Below, piece after piece: positions 2,335 through 57,441 of a DNA stretch of 64,000 nucleotides (its first letter is position 1; every line of letters begins with the position of its first letter). Position numbers and translations under genes: made by a program. Location: NCBI RefSeq assembly GCF_017876495.1, contig NZ_JAGIOB010000001.1, positions 3,906,001 through 3,970,000 on the forward strand, written 5' to 3'. This stretch comes from Microlunatus capsulatus (GTDB lineage Bacteria; Actinomycetota; Actinomycetes; Propionibacteriales; Propionibacteriaceae). The notes under the pieces are model-generated. The model was not told where the DNA came from, ran no database searches, and saw nothing but the letters and a program-made list of their open reading frames with translations.

Positions 2335-3570
2335 GTGACGCTGACCGAGACCACCCACCCGAGCGCGACGCCGACGGCGCAGGCCGCGGCCCCGGCGGCC
2401 CCCCGGCTGGCGTCGGACTTCTTCGGCTTCCAGGGCCGGCTGAGCGGGCCGGAGCAGGCGGCGGCGCTGCGGGTCCGCACCTTCATGGAGACCGAGGTCC
2501 GCCCGGTCGCCGACGGCTTCTGGTCGCGAGCGGAGTTCCCGCGCCACCTCATCCCGGCGCTGGCCGAGCTGGGCCTGCTCGGCGCCTTCGTGCCCGAGGT
2601 GCGGCACTTCGAGAACACCGCGGTCTACCGGGGCTGGATCGCCCTGGAGCTCGCCCGCGTCGACGCCGGCGTCGCGACCTTCGTCGGCGTGCAGTCCGGC
2701 CTGGCGATGGGCGCCGTGCACGTCGGCGGCTCCCCGGAGCAGCAGGCGTGGTGGCTGCCGCGGATGGCGACGGGCGAGGTGGTCGGGGCCTTCGGGCTGA
2801 CCGAGCCGCTCTCGGGCTCGGACTCCGCGCGCGGCCTGCGGACCACCGCCCGGCGCGAGGGCGACCACTGGGTGCTGCGCGGGGAGAAGCGCTGGATCGG
2901 CAACGGCACCTTCGCCGACGTCGTCGTCGTCCTGGCCAAGGACGTCGCCGACGGCCAGGTCAAGGGCTTCCTCGTGGCCACCGACAGCCCGGGCTTCACC
3001 GCGTCCAAGATCGAGGACAAGATCAGCCTCCGCTCGGTGCAGAACGCCGACATCATGCTGGACGACGTGGTCGTCCCCGAGGACCGCCGGCTGCCGGGCA
3101 TCCGCTCGTTCCGCGACGTCGCGACCGTCCTGCGGCTGACCCGCTGCGACGTCGCCTGGCAGGCCATCGGCATCGCGGTCGGGGCCTACGAGGCGGCGCT
3201 GGCCTACGCCCTGCAGCGCGAGCAGTTCGGCAAGCCCATCGCCGCGCACCAGCTGGTCCAGGACCTGCTGGCCCGCTGCGTCGGCAACATCACCGCCAGC
3301 ATCGCGCTCTGCCTGCAGGCCTCGGCGATGCAGGACGAGGGCGTCCAGCGCGACGAGCACTCCGCGCTGGCCAAGTCCTTCGCCACCAGCCGGATGCGCG
3401 AGACCGTGGGCTGGGCGCGGGAGATCCTCGGCGGCAACGGGATCGTGCTGGAGCACGGCGTCGCCCGCTTCTTCGCCGACGCCGAGGCGATCTACTCCTA
3501 CGAGGGCACCCGGGACATGAACTCCCTCATCGTCGGCCGCGCCATCACCGGGCACCAGGCCTTCGTCTGA
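2335..3570 (+). CDS. Acyl-CoA dehydrogenase, glutaryl-CoA dehydrogenase-like
   Basis: A 411-residue FAD-dependent acyl-CoA dehydrogenase. The flavin/substrate motif FGLTEPLSGSD begins near residue 153 and the catalytic base is Glu390 in YSYEGTRDMNSL, the position used by the glutaryl-CoA dehydrogenase subfamily; the C-terminus GRAITGHQAF also matches that subfamily. However, the Arg that binds the glutaryl carboxylate in true GCDH (within the VDSGYRS stretch) corresponds here to Ala in RVDAGVATF, so glutaryl-CoA is doubtful as substrate. The start is GTG, with AGGA and GAGGGG upstream. An Ala/Pro/Thr-rich N-terminal extension of about 25 residues is probably disordered. Controlled by the repeat at 2285-2314 (inferred). 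Confidence 0.88.
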   Translation: MTLTETTHPSATPTAQAAAPAAPRLASDFFGFQGRLSGPEQAAALRVRTFMETEVRPVADGFWSRAEFPRHLIPALAELGLLGAFVPEVRHFENTAVYRGWIALELARVDAGVATFVGVQSGLAMGAVHVGGSPEQQAWWLPRMATGEVVGAFGLTEPLSGSDSARGLRTTARREGDHWVLRGEKRWIGNGTFADVVVVLAKDVADGQVKGFLVATDSPGFTASKIEDKISLRSVQNADIMLDDVVVPEDRRLPGIRSFRDVATVLRLTRCDVAWQAIGIAVGAYEAALAYALQREQFGKPIAAHQLVQDLLARCVGNITASIALCLQASAMQDEGVQRDEHSALAKSFATSRMRETVGWAREILGGNGIVLEHGVARFFADAEAIYSYEGTRDMNSLIVGRAITGHQAFV

Positions 3571-3591
3571 GCAGTACGACGGTGACGGTCC

Positions 3592-4701
3592 TCAGAAGGT
3601 GACGACCTGGCGCAGCACGACGCCCAGCGCCAGGGCGTCGAGGGCCTCGTGCAGGCCGCCGAGCTCGAGGCGGTGCGAGACCAGCCGCTCGACGGGCAGC
3701 CGGCCCTCGCGCCACAGCTCCACGTAGCGCGGGACGTCGCGGGCCGGGACCGACGAGCCGAGGTAGCTGCCGACGACGGTGCGGGCCTCGGCGGTCAGCA
3801 GCAGCGGGGACACCGCGGCCCGCGCGTCGGGGCCCGGCAGCCCGACCGTCACCGTGGTCCCGCCCGGCGCGGTGACGGCGAGCGCGGTCTCGAAGGCCCG
3901 GGCGCTGCCGGCCGCCTCGACGACGGTGGGCGCCCGCAGGCCGCGCTCCAGCGCCTCGGCCGGGGTGAGCGCGGCGACCGCCCCCAGCTCGGCGGCCGTC
4001 GCGAGCTTCCCGCGCACCGGGTCGACGGCGGTCACCGGGTGCCCCAGCGCCTGCGCGACCAGCAGGGCCGCCATCCCGACGCCGCCCAGCCCCACCACCA
4101 GCACCGGGCTGCCCGGCTCCGGGGACGCGGCGTTGAGCACGGCGCCGCCGCCGGTCAGCACGGCGCAGCCCAGCAGGGCCGCCACCTCGGCGGGGACGTC
4201 GGCCGGCACCGGCACCACCGAGCGCCGGTCGACCACCACCTGCTCGGCGAAGGCCGACACCCCGAGGTGGTGGGCGACCGGGACGCCGTCGCGGGTCAGC
4301 CGCCGGCCGCCGCCCAGCAGGTCGCCCGCGGCGTTCGCGTCCGAGCCGGGGCCGCAGGGGAGCCGGCCGCCGGTGGCGCAGCCCGGGCAGCGGCCGCAGC
4401 GCGGCAGGAAGGTCATCACCACCCGGTCGCCGACCGCGACGTCGTCGACCCCCGCGCCCACCTCGGCGACCAGCCCGGCCGCCTCGTGGCCCAGCAGCAT
4501 CGGCGTGGGCCGCGGCCGGTTCCCGTCGACGACGGACAGGTCGGAGTGGCAGAGCCCGGCGGCCTCGACGCGCACCCGCAGCTCGCCGGGGCCCGGCGGC
4601 GCCAGCTCCAGGGCGCTCAGGGTCAGGGGCCGCGACGCCGCGAACGGCGCCGGCCGCCCGACCTCCTCCAGGACCGCTCCGGTGATCCGCACGCCCGTCA
4701 T
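3592..4701 (-). CDS. Zinc-dependent alcohol dehydrogenase (MDR family)
   Basis: A 369-residue medium-chain dehydrogenase. The catalytic zinc ligands are C51 (CHSD), H72-E73 (GHEAAG) and C179. The structural zinc site is C102-x2-C105-x2-C108-x7-C116. The NAD-binding motif GLGGVG lies at 204-209, followed by an acidic residue in TAVDP that favours NAD over NADP. The presence of both zinc sites places it with class I/III-type alcohol or formaldehyde dehydrogenases, close in style to mycobacterial adhD-like enzymes. It is convergent with the acyl-CoA dehydrogenase gene and divergent from the hydrolase at 4735. The physiological alcohol is unknown. Confidence 0.85.
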   Translation of the reverse strand: MTGVRITGAVLEEVGRPAPFAASRPLTLSALELAPPGPGELRVRVEAAGLCHSDLSVVDGNRPRPTPMLLGHEAAGLVAEVGAGVDDVAVGDRVVMTFLPRCGRCPGCATGGRLPCGPGSDANAAGDLLGGGRRLTRDGVPVAHHLGVSAFAEQVVVDRRSVVPVPADVPAEVAALLGCAVLTGGGAVLNAASPEPGSPVLVVGLGGVGMAALLVAQALGHPVTAVDPVRGKLATAAELGAVAALTPAEALERGLRAPTVVEAAGSARAFETALAVTAPGGTTVTVGLPGPDARAAVSPLLLTAEARTVVGSYLGSSVPARDVPRYVELWREGRLPVERLVSHRLELGGLHEALDALALGVVLRQVVTF

Positions 4702-50101: not shown

Positions 50102-50356
50102 CGCTCGTCCGTCCCGGTCCGGGTCCGTTCCGGACCCCCTGAGCACGCCCTGGAGATCATCCTGGTCACCACCCTCGGTCGACGGCGGGCCACGGCGCCG
50201 CGCTGTCCCGCGGAGGCTAACGCACGCGCCGGGGGCAGGGCGCCACCGGCACCGCAGCGGCTGCGCCGTCCGGAGGCGGCACCGCGAGGTGGTCGTCGCC
50301 GGCCCGCCCGGCCCGCCCGCTTTGCCACCGGGACGGCGGACGAGGAGGATTGGACG

Positions 50357-51823
50357 GTGGACCAGCCGAACCGCCCTGACCGACGCGACCCCGACGGCTC
50401 CAGCCGCGGTGACGGGGACCGCCGCGACGGACGTCCCGGCGGCTCCCGCCCCTACGGCAGCGCCGCCGGTCGTCCCGACCGCAGCGGTCCCGTCCGTCGC
50501 GGACCCCGACCCGAGGGCCGGGCTGGCGCCGACCGCCCGGACCGCGGCGACCGTCCCGACCGGGGGCAGCGGCCCGACCGCGGCGACGCCCGGCGCGACG
50601 ACCGCCCACCGCGTGACGACCGCTGGGGCCGCGACGACCGCGCACCGCGGGCGGACCGCCCCGCGCGGGACGACCGCGGTGGTCGCCCCGAGCGCACCGA
50701 CCGCTACGACCGCGGTGCCCGTGATGACCGGTCCCGGGACGACCGCCCCCGCTCCGACCGGCCCCAGCGCTCCGACCGGCCCGCCGCCGCCCGTCCGGCC
50801 TCGGGTCGCCCGACCGAGAGCCGCGGCGCGCGCGGCACCCGCGACCCGCGGCCGTGGGACGAGCGCCCCGCCCGCGGTGGCCGGGACGACCGTCCCCCGC
50901 GCAGCGGACCGCCCCGCGGCGACCGTCCCGACCGGGGCGACCGTCCCGACCGGGGCGAGCGGGGCGGCCGGCCTGAGCGCGGGGGCCGTCCCGACCGGCC
51001 CGGCGCCGACCGCCGGCCGCCGCGCCGCGACGAGCCGCCGCGTCCGGGTCTGGCCCGCCGGGCCGACGAGCCGTCGATCCCCGAGGGCGTCGACACCCGC
51101 GAGCTGCACCGCGCGGCGCGCGCCGAGCTGCGCGGGCTGCCCAAGGAGCTGGCCGAGATCGTCGCGTCCCACCTGGTCGTCGCCGGCCAGATGATCGAGG
51201 CCGACCCCGAGCTGGCCTACCGGCACGCCGAGGCCGCCCGCCGCCGGGCCGCCCGGCTGCCGCTGGTCCGGGAGGCGGCGGCCGAGACCGCCTACGCCTC
51301 GGGGCGCTGGGACGTCGCGCTCAGCGAGTACCGCGCGCTGCGCCGGATGACCGGCACCCACGACTACCTGCCGGTGATGGCGGACTGCGAGCGGGCGCTG
51401 GGCCGGCCCGAGAACGCTCTCAAGCTCGCCCGCGAGGCCGATCACCTGGAGCTCGACCCGGCGCTGCGGGTGGAGATGACCATCGTCGAGTCCGGAGCCC
51501 GCCGCGACCTCGGCCAGGGTGCGGAGGCCCGCCGGCTGCTGCAGCAGGCGGTCCAGAGCCAGACCGTGCGGCCTGGCCTGCAGGTCGCCGTCGCCCGGCT
51601 CCGCTACGCCTACGCCGAGGCGCTGCTGCTGGACGGCGAGCGCGAGGAGGCGCGGCGCTGGTTCGTCTCCGCCGCCAAGCTCGACCCCGAGCAGGAGACC
51701 GACGCCGCGCTGCGCGTCGACGAGATCGACGGCCTGCTCATCGACTTCGACGAGGACGACGACGAGGACGGCCCGGACGACGACGGGACCGACGGGCCCG
51801 GGTCCGACCGGGACGGCCGGTGA
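50357..51823 (+). CDS. TPR protein with long Arg/Asp-rich disordered N-terminus
   Basis: A 488-residue protein in two halves. Residues 1 to about 238 are low complexity, built of Arg, Asp, Pro and Gly in repeats such as RPDRGDRPDRG and RDDRPPRDDR, and must be disordered. Residues about 240-470 are alpha-helical tetratricopeptide-like repeats (ELAYRHAEAARRRAARLP, GRWDVALSEYRALRRM, GRPENALKLAREADHL, GEREEARRWFVSAAKLDP). The tail is Asp/Glu-rich. The position before a HAD phosphatase equals Rv1691 in mycobacteria. GTG at 50357 has GGAGGA upstream. Function unknown; RNA or protein scaffolding is inferred only. Confidence 0.85.
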   Translation: MDQPNRPDRRDPDGSSRGDGDRRDGRPGGSRPYGSAAGRPDRSGPVRRGPRPEGRAGADRPDRGDRPDRGQRPDRGDARRDDRPPRDDRWGRDDRAPRADRPARDDRGGRPERTDRYDRGARDDRSRDDRPRSDRPQRSDRPAAARPASGRPTESRGARGTRDPRPWDERPARGGRDDRPPRSGPPRGDRPDRGDRPDRGERGGRPERGGRPDRPGADRRPPRRDEPPRPGLARRADEPSIPEGVDTRELHRAARAELRGLPKELAEIVASHLVVAGQMIEADPELAYRHAEAARRRAARLPLVREAAAETAYASGRWDVALSEYRALRRMTGTHDYLPVMADCERALGRPENALKLAREADHLELDPALRVEMTIVESGARRDLGQGAEARRLLQQAVQSQTVRPGLQVAVARLRYAYAEALLLDGEREEARRWFVSAAKLDPEQETDAALRVDEIDGLLIDFDEDDDEDGPDDDGTDGPGSDRDGR

Positions 51824-52818: not shown

Positions 52819-53181
52819 TCAGCGCCGCCGGCGGACGGTGACCGGGCCGGCGGCGGTCGAGCCGTCGACCACCCGCCCGCCCTGCACGATCTCGGCCTCG
52901 CCGGCCGCGACCAGCCGCCGCGCCGCCCGGCGCACGGGCTCCAGCTGCGCGCGCCAGTCGTCCGCGTCGACGGCGCGGGCCACGTCGACGTCGCCGACGC
53001 CCTTCGGCGCGGTCCGCAGCAGGGTCCGCAGCCGCTCCTCGAGCGCGCGGTCGGCCTCGCTCACCCCCCGGGAGCGGCAGCCGGCGCTGCAGTAGAGGAC
53101 CTCGTCCCAGTCGCGCTCCCACTTCTTCCGCCAGGTGATGCGGCGGCCGCAGGAGCGGCACGGCTTGCTCGGCGGGGGCAC
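52819..53181 (-). CDS. DUF2256 plus DUF3253 protein
   Basis: A 120-residue fusion. The N-terminal DUF2256 is a small zinc-finger-like unit: C8-x2-C11, then WRKKW, then C31-x3-C35 ([10 protein letters not shown]). The C-terminal DUF3253 ([14 protein letters not shown] to [15 protein letters not shown]) looks like a winged helix. DUF2256 genes frequently neighbour cryptochrome/photolyase genes, and a photolyase-like gene lies 3 kb away here. Only 3 bp separate its stop from that of the HAD gene. A DNA-related role is inferred. Confidence 0.85.
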
Positions 53182-56214: not shown

Positions 56215-57441
56215 TCAGACCTTCAGGTCCTTCCGCCACCCGCTGAACGAGCGCAGCGTCGCCGTCCGCGGGCGGGCCAGCCAGGGCCACGGGTGCACCT
56301 CGACAGGTCGCAGCTGCGCCGACCGGCGGGCCCAGCCCGGCACGGGGGTCCAGGTGGCGGCGAGCGACCGCCCGGCCAGCTCGTCGGCGACGGAGCCCCG
56401 CCGCACCTCCAGCGGCCGCCGCTCGGCCAGGTCGCCCAGGCACTCCGCGAGGAAGACCAGCCGCTTGCCCGAGAGCCGCAGCCGCCGCAGCAGCGGCTCG
56501 TCGAAGACGAAGACCGCCGGCCGGTCGGGGTCCGAGGCCAGCGCCGGGTCGTCGTCGCCCAGGGACTCCGCCGTCAGCCACACCTCCTCGGCACCCCCGC
56601 CCTCGACCTCGGCGGGTCCCGCCGGCACGGGCCCGCGGCCCAGGTCGGGCCCGTCCACCGCCGGCCCGGGCTGGGCGTCCGGCCACTCCTGCACCGGGCA
56701 CCGGTCCGCGAGCGGGCAGCGCCGGCAGAGCGACGGCGCCCGCTTCTCCACCTGCCAGCGGCTGAACCCGTAGGCCTTCCCGCTGCCGGTGCCCGTCGTC
56801 CACTGCCAGCCCAGCCGGTTGGACGCCCGCGAGCCGTCGAGCAGGTGCGCGTACATCTCCTGCTCGCCGACCCGCCAGTCGGCCCCGGCCCGCACCGTCC
56901 ACTGCGAGGCCAGCCACATCCTGGTCTGGTTCACCAGCCAGCCGTCGCGGTGCAGCTCGTCGGTGACGGCGGCCATGCACGCCATCTCCTGCGGCCACGG
57001 CTCGCCGGTCCAGACGGCAGCCCCGGCGCTCGGCTGCTCCCGGCGGAGCGCCTGCCCGTTCGCCGTCCCCACCCGCGCGTAGAGGTGGCGGGCGTACTCG
57101 GCCCACAGCAGCTCGTCGCGGTAGCGGCTGCGGTCCTGCTGCGGCGCCGAGCGCACCGCCGACCAGACGGCGGGCAGCGTGAGCAGGCCGTGCCGCAGGT
57201 AGGGCGACATCCGGCTGGCGCCGCGGGCCGAGGGCGGCAGCACCTGGCTGCGCCGCCGCGCGTAGCCGGCGACGTCCAGGCCCGCGAGGGCGGCGTCGGC
57301 CGCGGCCTGGCCGCCCCGGAAGCCGCCGGCGACCACCCCGTCGGGACCTTCCAGGGTCAGGTCGCCGAGGTGCTCGGCGACCCACGCCTCGGCGGCGCCG
57401 GCGTGGGGGCGGGGCGGGGGCGGGGCGGGGAGGAGGGGCAC
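56215..57441 (-). CDS. Photolyase/cryptochrome-like protein with permuted domains and an Fe-S-type Cys pattern
   Basis: A 408-residue protein. Residues about 70-240 are a photolyase FAD-binding domain: SPYLRHGLLTLPAVW, ELLWAEYARHLY, GWLVNQTRMWLA, then ASNRLGWQWTTGTGSG. Residues about 286-390 resemble the antenna-binding alpha/beta domain that normally comes first: VWLTAESLGDDDPALA, AVFVFDEPLLRRL, GKRLVFLAECLGDLAE. So the domain order is swapped. C155, C239, C242 and C248 follow the C-x(80-90)-C-x2-C-xn-C order of Fe-S bacterial photolyases, and C155 sits in the same helix context. The Asp of the usual GTGTD is replaced by Ser/Gly. GTG at 57441. DNA repair or blue-light sensing is inferred. 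Confidence 0.78.
   Translation of the reverse strand: MPLLPAPPPPRPHAGAAEAWVAEHLGDLTLEGPDGVVAGGFRGGQAAADAALAGLDVAGYARRRSQVLPPSARGASRMSPYLRHGLLTLPAVWSAVRSAPQQDRSRYRDELLWAEYARHLYARVGTANGQALRREQPSAGAAVWTGEPWPQEMACMAAVTDELHRDGWLVNQTRMWLASQWTVRAGADWRVGEQEMYAHLLDGSRASNRLGWQWTTGTGSGKAYGFSRWQVEKRAPSLCRRCPLADRCPVQEWPDAQPGPAVDGPDLGRGPVPAGPAEVEGGGAEEVWLTAESLGDDDPALASDPDRPAVFVFDEPLLRRLRLSGKRLVFLAECLGDLAERRPLEVRRGSVADELAGRSLAATWTPVPGWARRSAQLRPVEVHPWPWLARPRTATLRSFSGWRKDLKV

Follow-up and report, generated by a model that had tools for sequence, protein, structure and literature searches.

Photolyase-like proteins of Actinobacteria with reversed domain order and four invariant cysteines at putative iron–sulfur ligand positions

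The window, a 64,000-nucleotide stretch of the Microlunatus capsulatus genome, contains a photolyase gene on the minus strand (56215..57441) that starts with GTG at 57441 and encodes 408 amino acids followed by a stop codon; a plus-strand protein read across the same positions was rejected as a shadow frame. The encoded protein runs from a helical FAD-binding, catalytic domain (residues 16-234; 56740..57396, minus strand) through a segment with four cysteines to a C-terminal photolyase-type alpha/beta domain that is antenna-like (residues 284-395; 56257..56592, minus strand). This order, with the FAD domain first, was identical in all 39 full-length sequences that we collected (the query and 38 relatives), as was an N-terminal L4-P5 motif, the start codons of the relatives having been picked by script for proximity to that of the query. 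A putative esterase gene (PF00756) is transcribed away from the photolyase gene, and a pyridoxamine-oxidase-like gene is transcribed towards it. About 3 kb downstream, on the same strand, lies a gene for a DUF2256-DUF3253 protein (52819..53181, minus strand; PF10013, E 3e-15; PF11625, E 1.3e-15), which we propose as a functional partner and not as a part of the enzyme.

The catalytic domain was recognized by Pfam, by profile comparison, by its predicted helices and by structural search. FAD_binding_7 (PF03441) was the sole Pfam family listed for the query (residues 158-223, E 2.5e-10), in a short match that covers positions 59-124 of the model's 203. NCBIfam returned class I, DASH and plant-cryptochrome models for this domain, all far under their cut-offs, together with one weak, unrelated match. 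A profile of 37 relatives matched photolyase chains over residues 40-215 or so (E 2.3e-22) and PhrB (4dja) over residues 18-241 (E 5.3e-5). AlphaFold2, given 37 aligned sequences, modelled the whole protein with a pLDDT of 93.4 and a pTM of 0.92, as helical to about residue 240 and with alternating strands and helices from residue 286. The 50 Foldseek matches listed for this model were titled photolyase or cryptochrome, except for one ubiquitin ligase-substrate complex, with TMq values of only 0.29-0.44; Foldseek presumably aligns in sequence order and hence would cover one domain of the whole model.

Modelled alone by AlphaFold, the C-terminal domain reached a pLDDT of 82.9 and a pTM of 0.75, and its first and second PDB matches in Foldseek were class II photolyases (probability 0.99, TMq 0.50 and 0.48). 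Photolyases and cryptochromes made up seven of the 50 matches listed, among them 3zxs (TMq 0.54, rmsd 3.0), with unrelated folds as the remainder; no match among those listed reached an E value of 0.001 (best 0.022). PF00875 matched the query's C-terminal part at E 0.11 and one of the 37 aligned sequences at E 0.089. The C-terminal parts of four Deinococcus records matched that of the query (E 7e-8 to 6e-3), and three of these four loci matched PF00875 with E values of 2.3e-4 to 1e-3, all below Pfam's cut-off. We regard homology of this domain to the photolyase-type alpha/beta domain as well supported, short of proof. A preliminary description of this DNA had placed the FAD half first and the alpha/beta half second, and Pfam, AlphaFold and Foldseek agree with it, for the alpha/beta part mainly through structure. 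The description had also proposed comparing each half with family profiles, and FAD_binding_7 gave a match whereas PF00875 gave only a weak one.

We searched for relatives in several collections. A scan of genome contigs with six short peptide patterns, all taken from one protein and therefore suited to close relatives only, yielded 41 loci: 38 full-length genes, all on contigs with actinobacterial titles and 48-77% identical to the query, and three fragments (L036, L038 and L039) that were excluded from the 39 sequences. The alignment used for profile searches (A1) holds 37 of the 39, leaving out L018 and L032. Profile search with A1 detected the family in 21 of 245 genomes of the order, and a second sample of 296 actinobacterial-looking genomes contained 19 full-length carriers; these presence counts may be low, as at most 6-7 first-look candidates were scored per genome. 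One fragment, L036, is a partial copy (72% identical) on a contig titled Candidatus Melainabacteria, the only non-actinobacterial title among the 41 loci; the 296 genomes were drawn from the phylum of L036, and with 19 of them carrying the full-length family its title looks misassigned. In one genome (G400:C1:2311964-2313179) the family match fell into two pieces (3-181 and 183-409) separated by a few bases, meaning that this copy of the gene is either broken or misread.

Outside these genomes, a plasmid search gave 128 records, and among the 40 listed, the four Deinococcus records span the C-terminal part too. The two domains are fused in one gene on three Deinococcus plasmids (L056-L058) and are encoded by two open reading frames with a four-base overlap (2836-3609 and 3606-4127) on a plasmid of Deinococcus sp. 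QL22 (L055). A phage search returned nine records that matched over the catalytic domain only, and one scan of viral contigs returned no relative. Phage-labelled records from Listeria, Enterococcus and Staphylococcus (H43-H49) carried a photolyase FAD-domain match and may represent host DNA.

Four cysteines are invariant in the family. C155 (56977..56979), C239 (56725..56727), C242 (56716..56718) and C248 (56698..56700; all minus strand), the putative first to fourth cluster ligands, were each present in 39 of 39 sequences with an exact spacing of 84, 3 and 6, as first noticed in the preliminary description of the query, and C248 is followed by an equally invariant P249. The query's fifth cysteine, C334, is a cysteine in 7 of 39 sequences; in total, 23 proteins have four cysteines, ten have five and six have six. 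We rejected a chance pattern, given the exact spacing throughout and the 23 proteins with exactly four cysteines. Profile-profile alignment with eight four-cysteine FeS-BCPs from the order of the window genome, whose own FeS-BCP (L047) is one of the eight, paired all four positions (probability 89, E 2.2e-6), matching them to C338, C426, C429 and C442 of L047. The multiple alignment used for the tree paired three of the four, with C239 opposite serine or threonine; as a matter of judgement, we preferred the profile alignment, in which the CxxC motifs coincide. Equivalents of the four PhrB cysteines C350, C438, C441 and C454 are thus found completely by one alignment and for three positions by the other, which upholds the earlier proposal that the cysteines stand in register with FeS-BCP cluster ligands. 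The HHxxRLM stretch that the same proposal placed after the first cysteine has an equivalent at that point, but it reads VNQTRMW. All four cysteines were kept in 4 of 4 Deinococcus rows; the three NewPHL-type rows lacked the last three, and two of them also the first. PF10576 (EndIII_4Fe-2S) was found in 4 of 37 sequences, with a best E value of only 0.61. PhrB proteins with cysteine-to-serine changes were reported, in the accessible text, as not expressed or insoluble (PMC4619345), from which we infer a structural role for the putative cluster.

The residues that line the substrate pocket resemble those of CPD photolyases. The stretch E110-L-L-W113 (57103..57114, minus strand) aligned with the Glu and Trp of CPD photolyases at what we take to be their substrate-contact positions, and E110 and W113 were each found in 39 of 39 sequences. 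Gln replaces Glu at the E110 position in 15 of 15 PF04244 proteins and also in 8 of 16 class I/III and 1 of 4 Deinococcus rows, so that Glu here is not diagnostic. W214 was as invariant as W113 (39 of 39), in a region where the alignment with FeS-BCPs is uncertain, and W189 and W212, presumably two of the electron-transfer Trp positions, were likewise found in 39 of 39. N171 to M175 (56917..56931, minus strand) are of CPD type, with Asn in 39 of 39 and Met in 38 of 39 sequences, where the (6-4) photolyase PhrB has H366 and L370; the two residues lie 16 and 20 positions past the first cysteine, the same offsets as in PhrB. The N171 position was His in 15 of 15 PF04244 proteins and Asn in all 23 other rows (16 class I/III, four Deinococcus and three NewPHL-type), and the M175 position was Leu in the 15 PF04244 proteins. 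In PhrB, H366N and L370M were described as swaps to 'their CPD photolyase counterparts', and H366N left 0% (6-4) repair (PMC4619345, accessible text). The conserved N171 and M175 therefore indicate CPD rather than (6-4) repair, although Asn at 171 alone is insufficient to prove it. At S204, serine in 39 of 39 sequences, the family departs from the PCC 6301 photolyase, whose paired D382 is described as an FAD-contact Asp (PMC9426592).

The preliminary description had read the protein as a permuted branch of the FeS-BCPs, and here the phylogeny disagreed. We built a tree of the FAD domain from 52 rows and 192 columns, comprising 14 of the 39 sequences, four Deinococcus, three NewPHL-type, 16 class I/III and 15 PF04244 proteins; the last group (L097-L110 and L047) comes from one order and includes eight proteins with the four cysteines and seven without. 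The PF04244 proteins split from the other 37 rows with a support of 100/100 on a long branch (1.75). Forcing the 14 actinobacterial rows together with the eight four-cysteine FeS-BCPs cost 67.7 log-likelihood units (AU p 0.00025). The spacings of 84 and 6 also lie outside the FeS-BCP ranges of 86-89 residues between the first and second cysteines and 12-15 between the third and fourth (PMC3204975, accessible text), PF04244 was absent from the Pfam listing of the query and the other 36 aligned relatives, and the pocket has N171 and M175 in place of PhrB His366 and Leu370. We thus rejected placement on the FeS-BCP branch. By contrast, forcing the actinobacterial, Deinococcus and NewPHL-type rows together cost 0.06 units (AU p 0.486), which allows a single reversed-order clade without showing one, as the clade was not recovered in the tree; uniting the cysteine-bearing reversed-order proteins was similarly permitted (AU p 0.419).

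We compared the actinobacterial proteins with known systems. They share four cysteines in equivalent positions with FeS-BCPs (PhrB, RsCryB and the window genome's own L047; single-pair profile E 2.2e-6), but FeS-BCPs have the ordinary domain order, an N-terminal PF04244 domain and an HH active site. With class I CPD photolyases they share W113, N171, W214 and mostly M175 (class I/III, single-pair profile E 1.3e-19), whereas those enzymes have the ordinary order and lack the cysteine set. NewPHL-type proteins gave the best profile match after Deinococcus among four groups (E 1.4e-23); the three alphaproteobacterial rows so called from their layout lack the cysteine set that the actinobacterial proteins have, PF00875 was found in neither of the two scanned, and published accounts, as far as accessible, name their C-terminal part the Z-domain. 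An inverted domain topology has been described for NewPHL/SPL proteins (PMC13274461), which in the accessible texts have an N-terminal FAD domain and an active-site Asn (PMC9426592, PMC13274461, PMC9649867, PMC9178010, PMC9498864); 'SPL' in PMC12029717 denotes spore photoproduct lyase.

The closest published layout is that of Phr4/5 and Phr6 of marine Synechococcus and Cyanobium, for which Haney 2022, in its accessible text, describes reversed domains with a cysteine spacing of 85, 3 and 6 (C169, C254, C257 and C263 in RS9916 Phr4) and proposes (6-4) photolyase function; loss of phr4 made cells sensitive to UV-C, with no such effect for UV-B (PMC9426592). By that description, these proteins resemble the actinobacterial set in having the FAD domain first and four cysteines at 85-3-6 versus 84-3-6. 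Phr6 is fused and Phr4 and Phr5 are split, and fused and split forms also occur among the Deinococcus relatives. The cyanobacterial proteins differ in the (6-4) activity proposed for them, whereas the pocket of the actinobacterial proteins is of CPD type and Ser replaces one FAD-contact Asp. Phr7, described in the same text, has an N-terminal FAD domain and a C-terminal Z-domain without such cysteines and is of a kind shown to repair CPDs in single-stranded DNA (PMC9426592). The reversed order is therefore not a novelty, having been published for Phr4/5 and Phr6 (PMC9426592) and for NewPHL/SPL proteins (PMC13274461). To this, our analysis adds the actinobacterial set, its fused and split Deinococcus relatives and the co-occurrence with DUF2256; we found no account of the actinobacterial set in the literature searched, and the SPL set of Xu 2021 may already contain members of it.

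We then examined how the DUF2256-DUF3253 gene is distributed. A tblastn search with the protein recovered 11 fetched loci besides the window, including L049, which duplicates the L023 place. Within the fetched DNA, 6 of 41 loci had the gene close to that of the photolyase. The two genes share a strand in L023, L037 and L039, where DUF2256-DUF3253 lies directly downstream, and in L030 and L031, where it lies directly upstream; in L028 it is 1.4 kb off on the other strand. Photolyase and DUF2256 matches were 87-261 bases apart in genomes G251, G133, G155 and G106. Among the 21 carriers of the order sample, they were about 3 kb apart only in the window's genome and G412, on the same contig at 39 kb to 2.5 Mb in ten others (about 2.0 Mb in G400) and on different contigs in nine.

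Close spacing of the two genes was thus confined to a minority of genomes. Of the 245 genomes of the order, 43 had DUF2256 and 61 had PF04244. DUF2256 was present in 21 of 21 photolyase carriers versus 22 of 224 other genomes (Fisher 8.7e-19), and PF04244 in 21 of 21 versus 40 of 224 (Fisher 1.0e-14), with both tests ignoring shared descent. In the window's genus, all five carriers had both DUF2256 and PF04244, and none of the five non-carriers had either. The association was looser in the second sample of 296 genomes, in which 14 of 19 full-length carriers had DUF2256 (5 of 19 lacked it) versus 18 of 277 others. DUF2256 also accompanies PF04244 (42 of 43), and both control genomes with DUF2256 belong to the three with PF04244; the protein may therefore serve the PF04244 enzyme instead of the reversed-order photolyase. 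In the literature searched, no paper mentioned DUF2256 and photolyase together, and two mentioned DUF2256.

Upstream sequences pointed to repair in one clade. We looked for TCGAAC-N4-GTTCGA, which we take to be the actinobacterial LexA box, and found 17 similar sites with at most one mismatch in 470 kb from 38 loci. Seven of the 17 lay within about 85 bases of a photolyase gene start, all in five Rhodococcus or Rhodococcoides loci that are close kin (L003, L004, L005, L008 and L018), and two of these loci (L005 and L008) have two such palindromes in tandem. At the same threshold, no such site was found upstream of the window gene (best 5 mismatches) or of 33 of the 38 relatives. This distribution suggests SOS control in the Rhodococcus clade and, for these proteins alone, favours a role in DNA repair. 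The window genome itself has a class I photolyase (L044) and a class II photolyase (L046), both labels being our reading of the sequences, in addition to the four-cysteine FeS-BCP (L047) and the reversed-order gene.

Judged by its domain order, its catalytic-domain homology, the conservation and register of its cysteines and its CPD-type residues, the protein is an actinobacterial member of the published reversed-order, cysteine-bearing kind and most likely a CPD photolyase. Its full reading, which we consider probable, is that of a light-driven, CPD-repairing DNA photolyase with the SPL/NewPHL layout and a [4Fe-4S] cluster. FAD would be held in the N-terminal helical domain, and a cyclobutane pyrimidine dimer would be flipped into the pocket of E110, W113, N171, M175 and W214, where blue light acting on reduced FAD would drive electron transfer to the dimer and split it. 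A cluster on C155, C239, C242 and C248 would pin the end of the catalytic domain, probably for stability, as has been proposed for PhrB, and the C-terminal domain would dock like the antenna-like domain of ordinary photolyases and might bind a pigment. Binding of FAD and cluster, repair, CPD specificity, the stabilizing role and docking are thus what we infer from these features. Several points count against this reading: the Ser in place of the FAD-contact Asp, the short FAD_binding_7 match, the pairing of only three cysteines with FeS-BCPs in the multiple alignment, the (6-4) activity predicted for Phr4/6, the lack of a LexA-like site at the window gene and the presence of photolyases of both class I and class II in the genome.

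One alternative is that the proteins are reversed-order Fe-S (6-4) photolyases, with the cluster as a mark of (6-4) repair, in line with the proposal of Haney 2022 for Phr4/5 and Phr6. The cysteine set and layout are shared with Phr4/6, as described in the accessible text, and the loss of survival after UV-C and not UV-B in the phr4 mutant would fit (PMC9426592). However, Asn replaces the essential PhrB His366 in every sequence, and Met replaces Leu370 in all but one; in addition, photolyases of PF04244, the family of the known prokaryotic (6-4) enzymes, were present in 21 of 21 carriers of the order sample, although 7 of the 15 examined lack the cysteines. We therefore consider (6-4) repair unlikely. 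A cryptochrome-like light sensor or another non-repair flavoprotein, in which fold and cluster would serve signalling or the binding of nucleic acids, appears about equally unlikely. The uniform S204 and the short FAD_binding_7 match are departures from photolyases that such a role could accommodate, and a small Cys-rich DUF2256-DUF3253 protein co-occurs, but invariant E110, W113, N171 and W214 and the LexA-like sites of the Rhodococcus clade argue for repair; nothing that we found favoured the cryptochrome that the preliminary description had offered beside a photolyase.

It is less probable still that the four cysteines bind zinc or are otherwise structural, with no iron–sulfur cluster. The cluster is assigned from sequence, the spacings of 84 and 6 depart from the FeS-BCP ranges, and C239 has no cysteine partner in the tree's multiple alignment. 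Set against this, the profile alignment pairs all four cysteines with FeS-BCP ligands, the distance from the first cysteine to the active-site residue is 16 in both groups, and the Deinococcus rows keep the four cysteines where NewPHL-type rows lack the last three. The actinobacterial set extends a layout known from picocyanobacteria to a large, culturable bacterial group and uncouples the iron–sulfur cluster from (6-4) chemistry, in that the putative ligands lie beside a CPD-type pocket; the cysteine set alone is therefore no safe basis for predicting (6-4) activity. If the CPD-photolyase reading is correct, it would also help to test the proposal, made in the accessible text of PMC9649867 with reference to Xu 2021, that the family descends from a cluster-bearing CPD enzyme. 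A wider proposal is possible but doubtful: Actinobacteria, cultured type strains included, and Deinococcus may possess CPD photolyases that unite a [4Fe-4S] cluster, reversed order and a CPD-type active site, a combination near to the photolyase/cryptochrome ancestor proposed in PMC9649867, and for which DUF2256-DUF3253 would be a dedicated partner in a module with the PF04244 photolyase. For the uncharacterized DUF2256 domain, the strict co-occurrence in one order suggests a function that can be put to the test, namely in light-driven repair.

The gene neighbourhoods were compared with queries drawn from the window and five loci, namely open reading frames of at least 110 amino acids, a choice by which shared neighbours may be missed. 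A kynureninase-like open reading frame, read from sequence, lies near the photolyase gene in seven loci (L007, at 3418-4642, L006, L011, L012, L013, L034 and L040). In the window, the plus strand at about 50300-51190 has an open reading frame with long Arg/Asp/Pro/Gly-rich runs (DRPDRG-like) that are probably disordered and precede a helical region.
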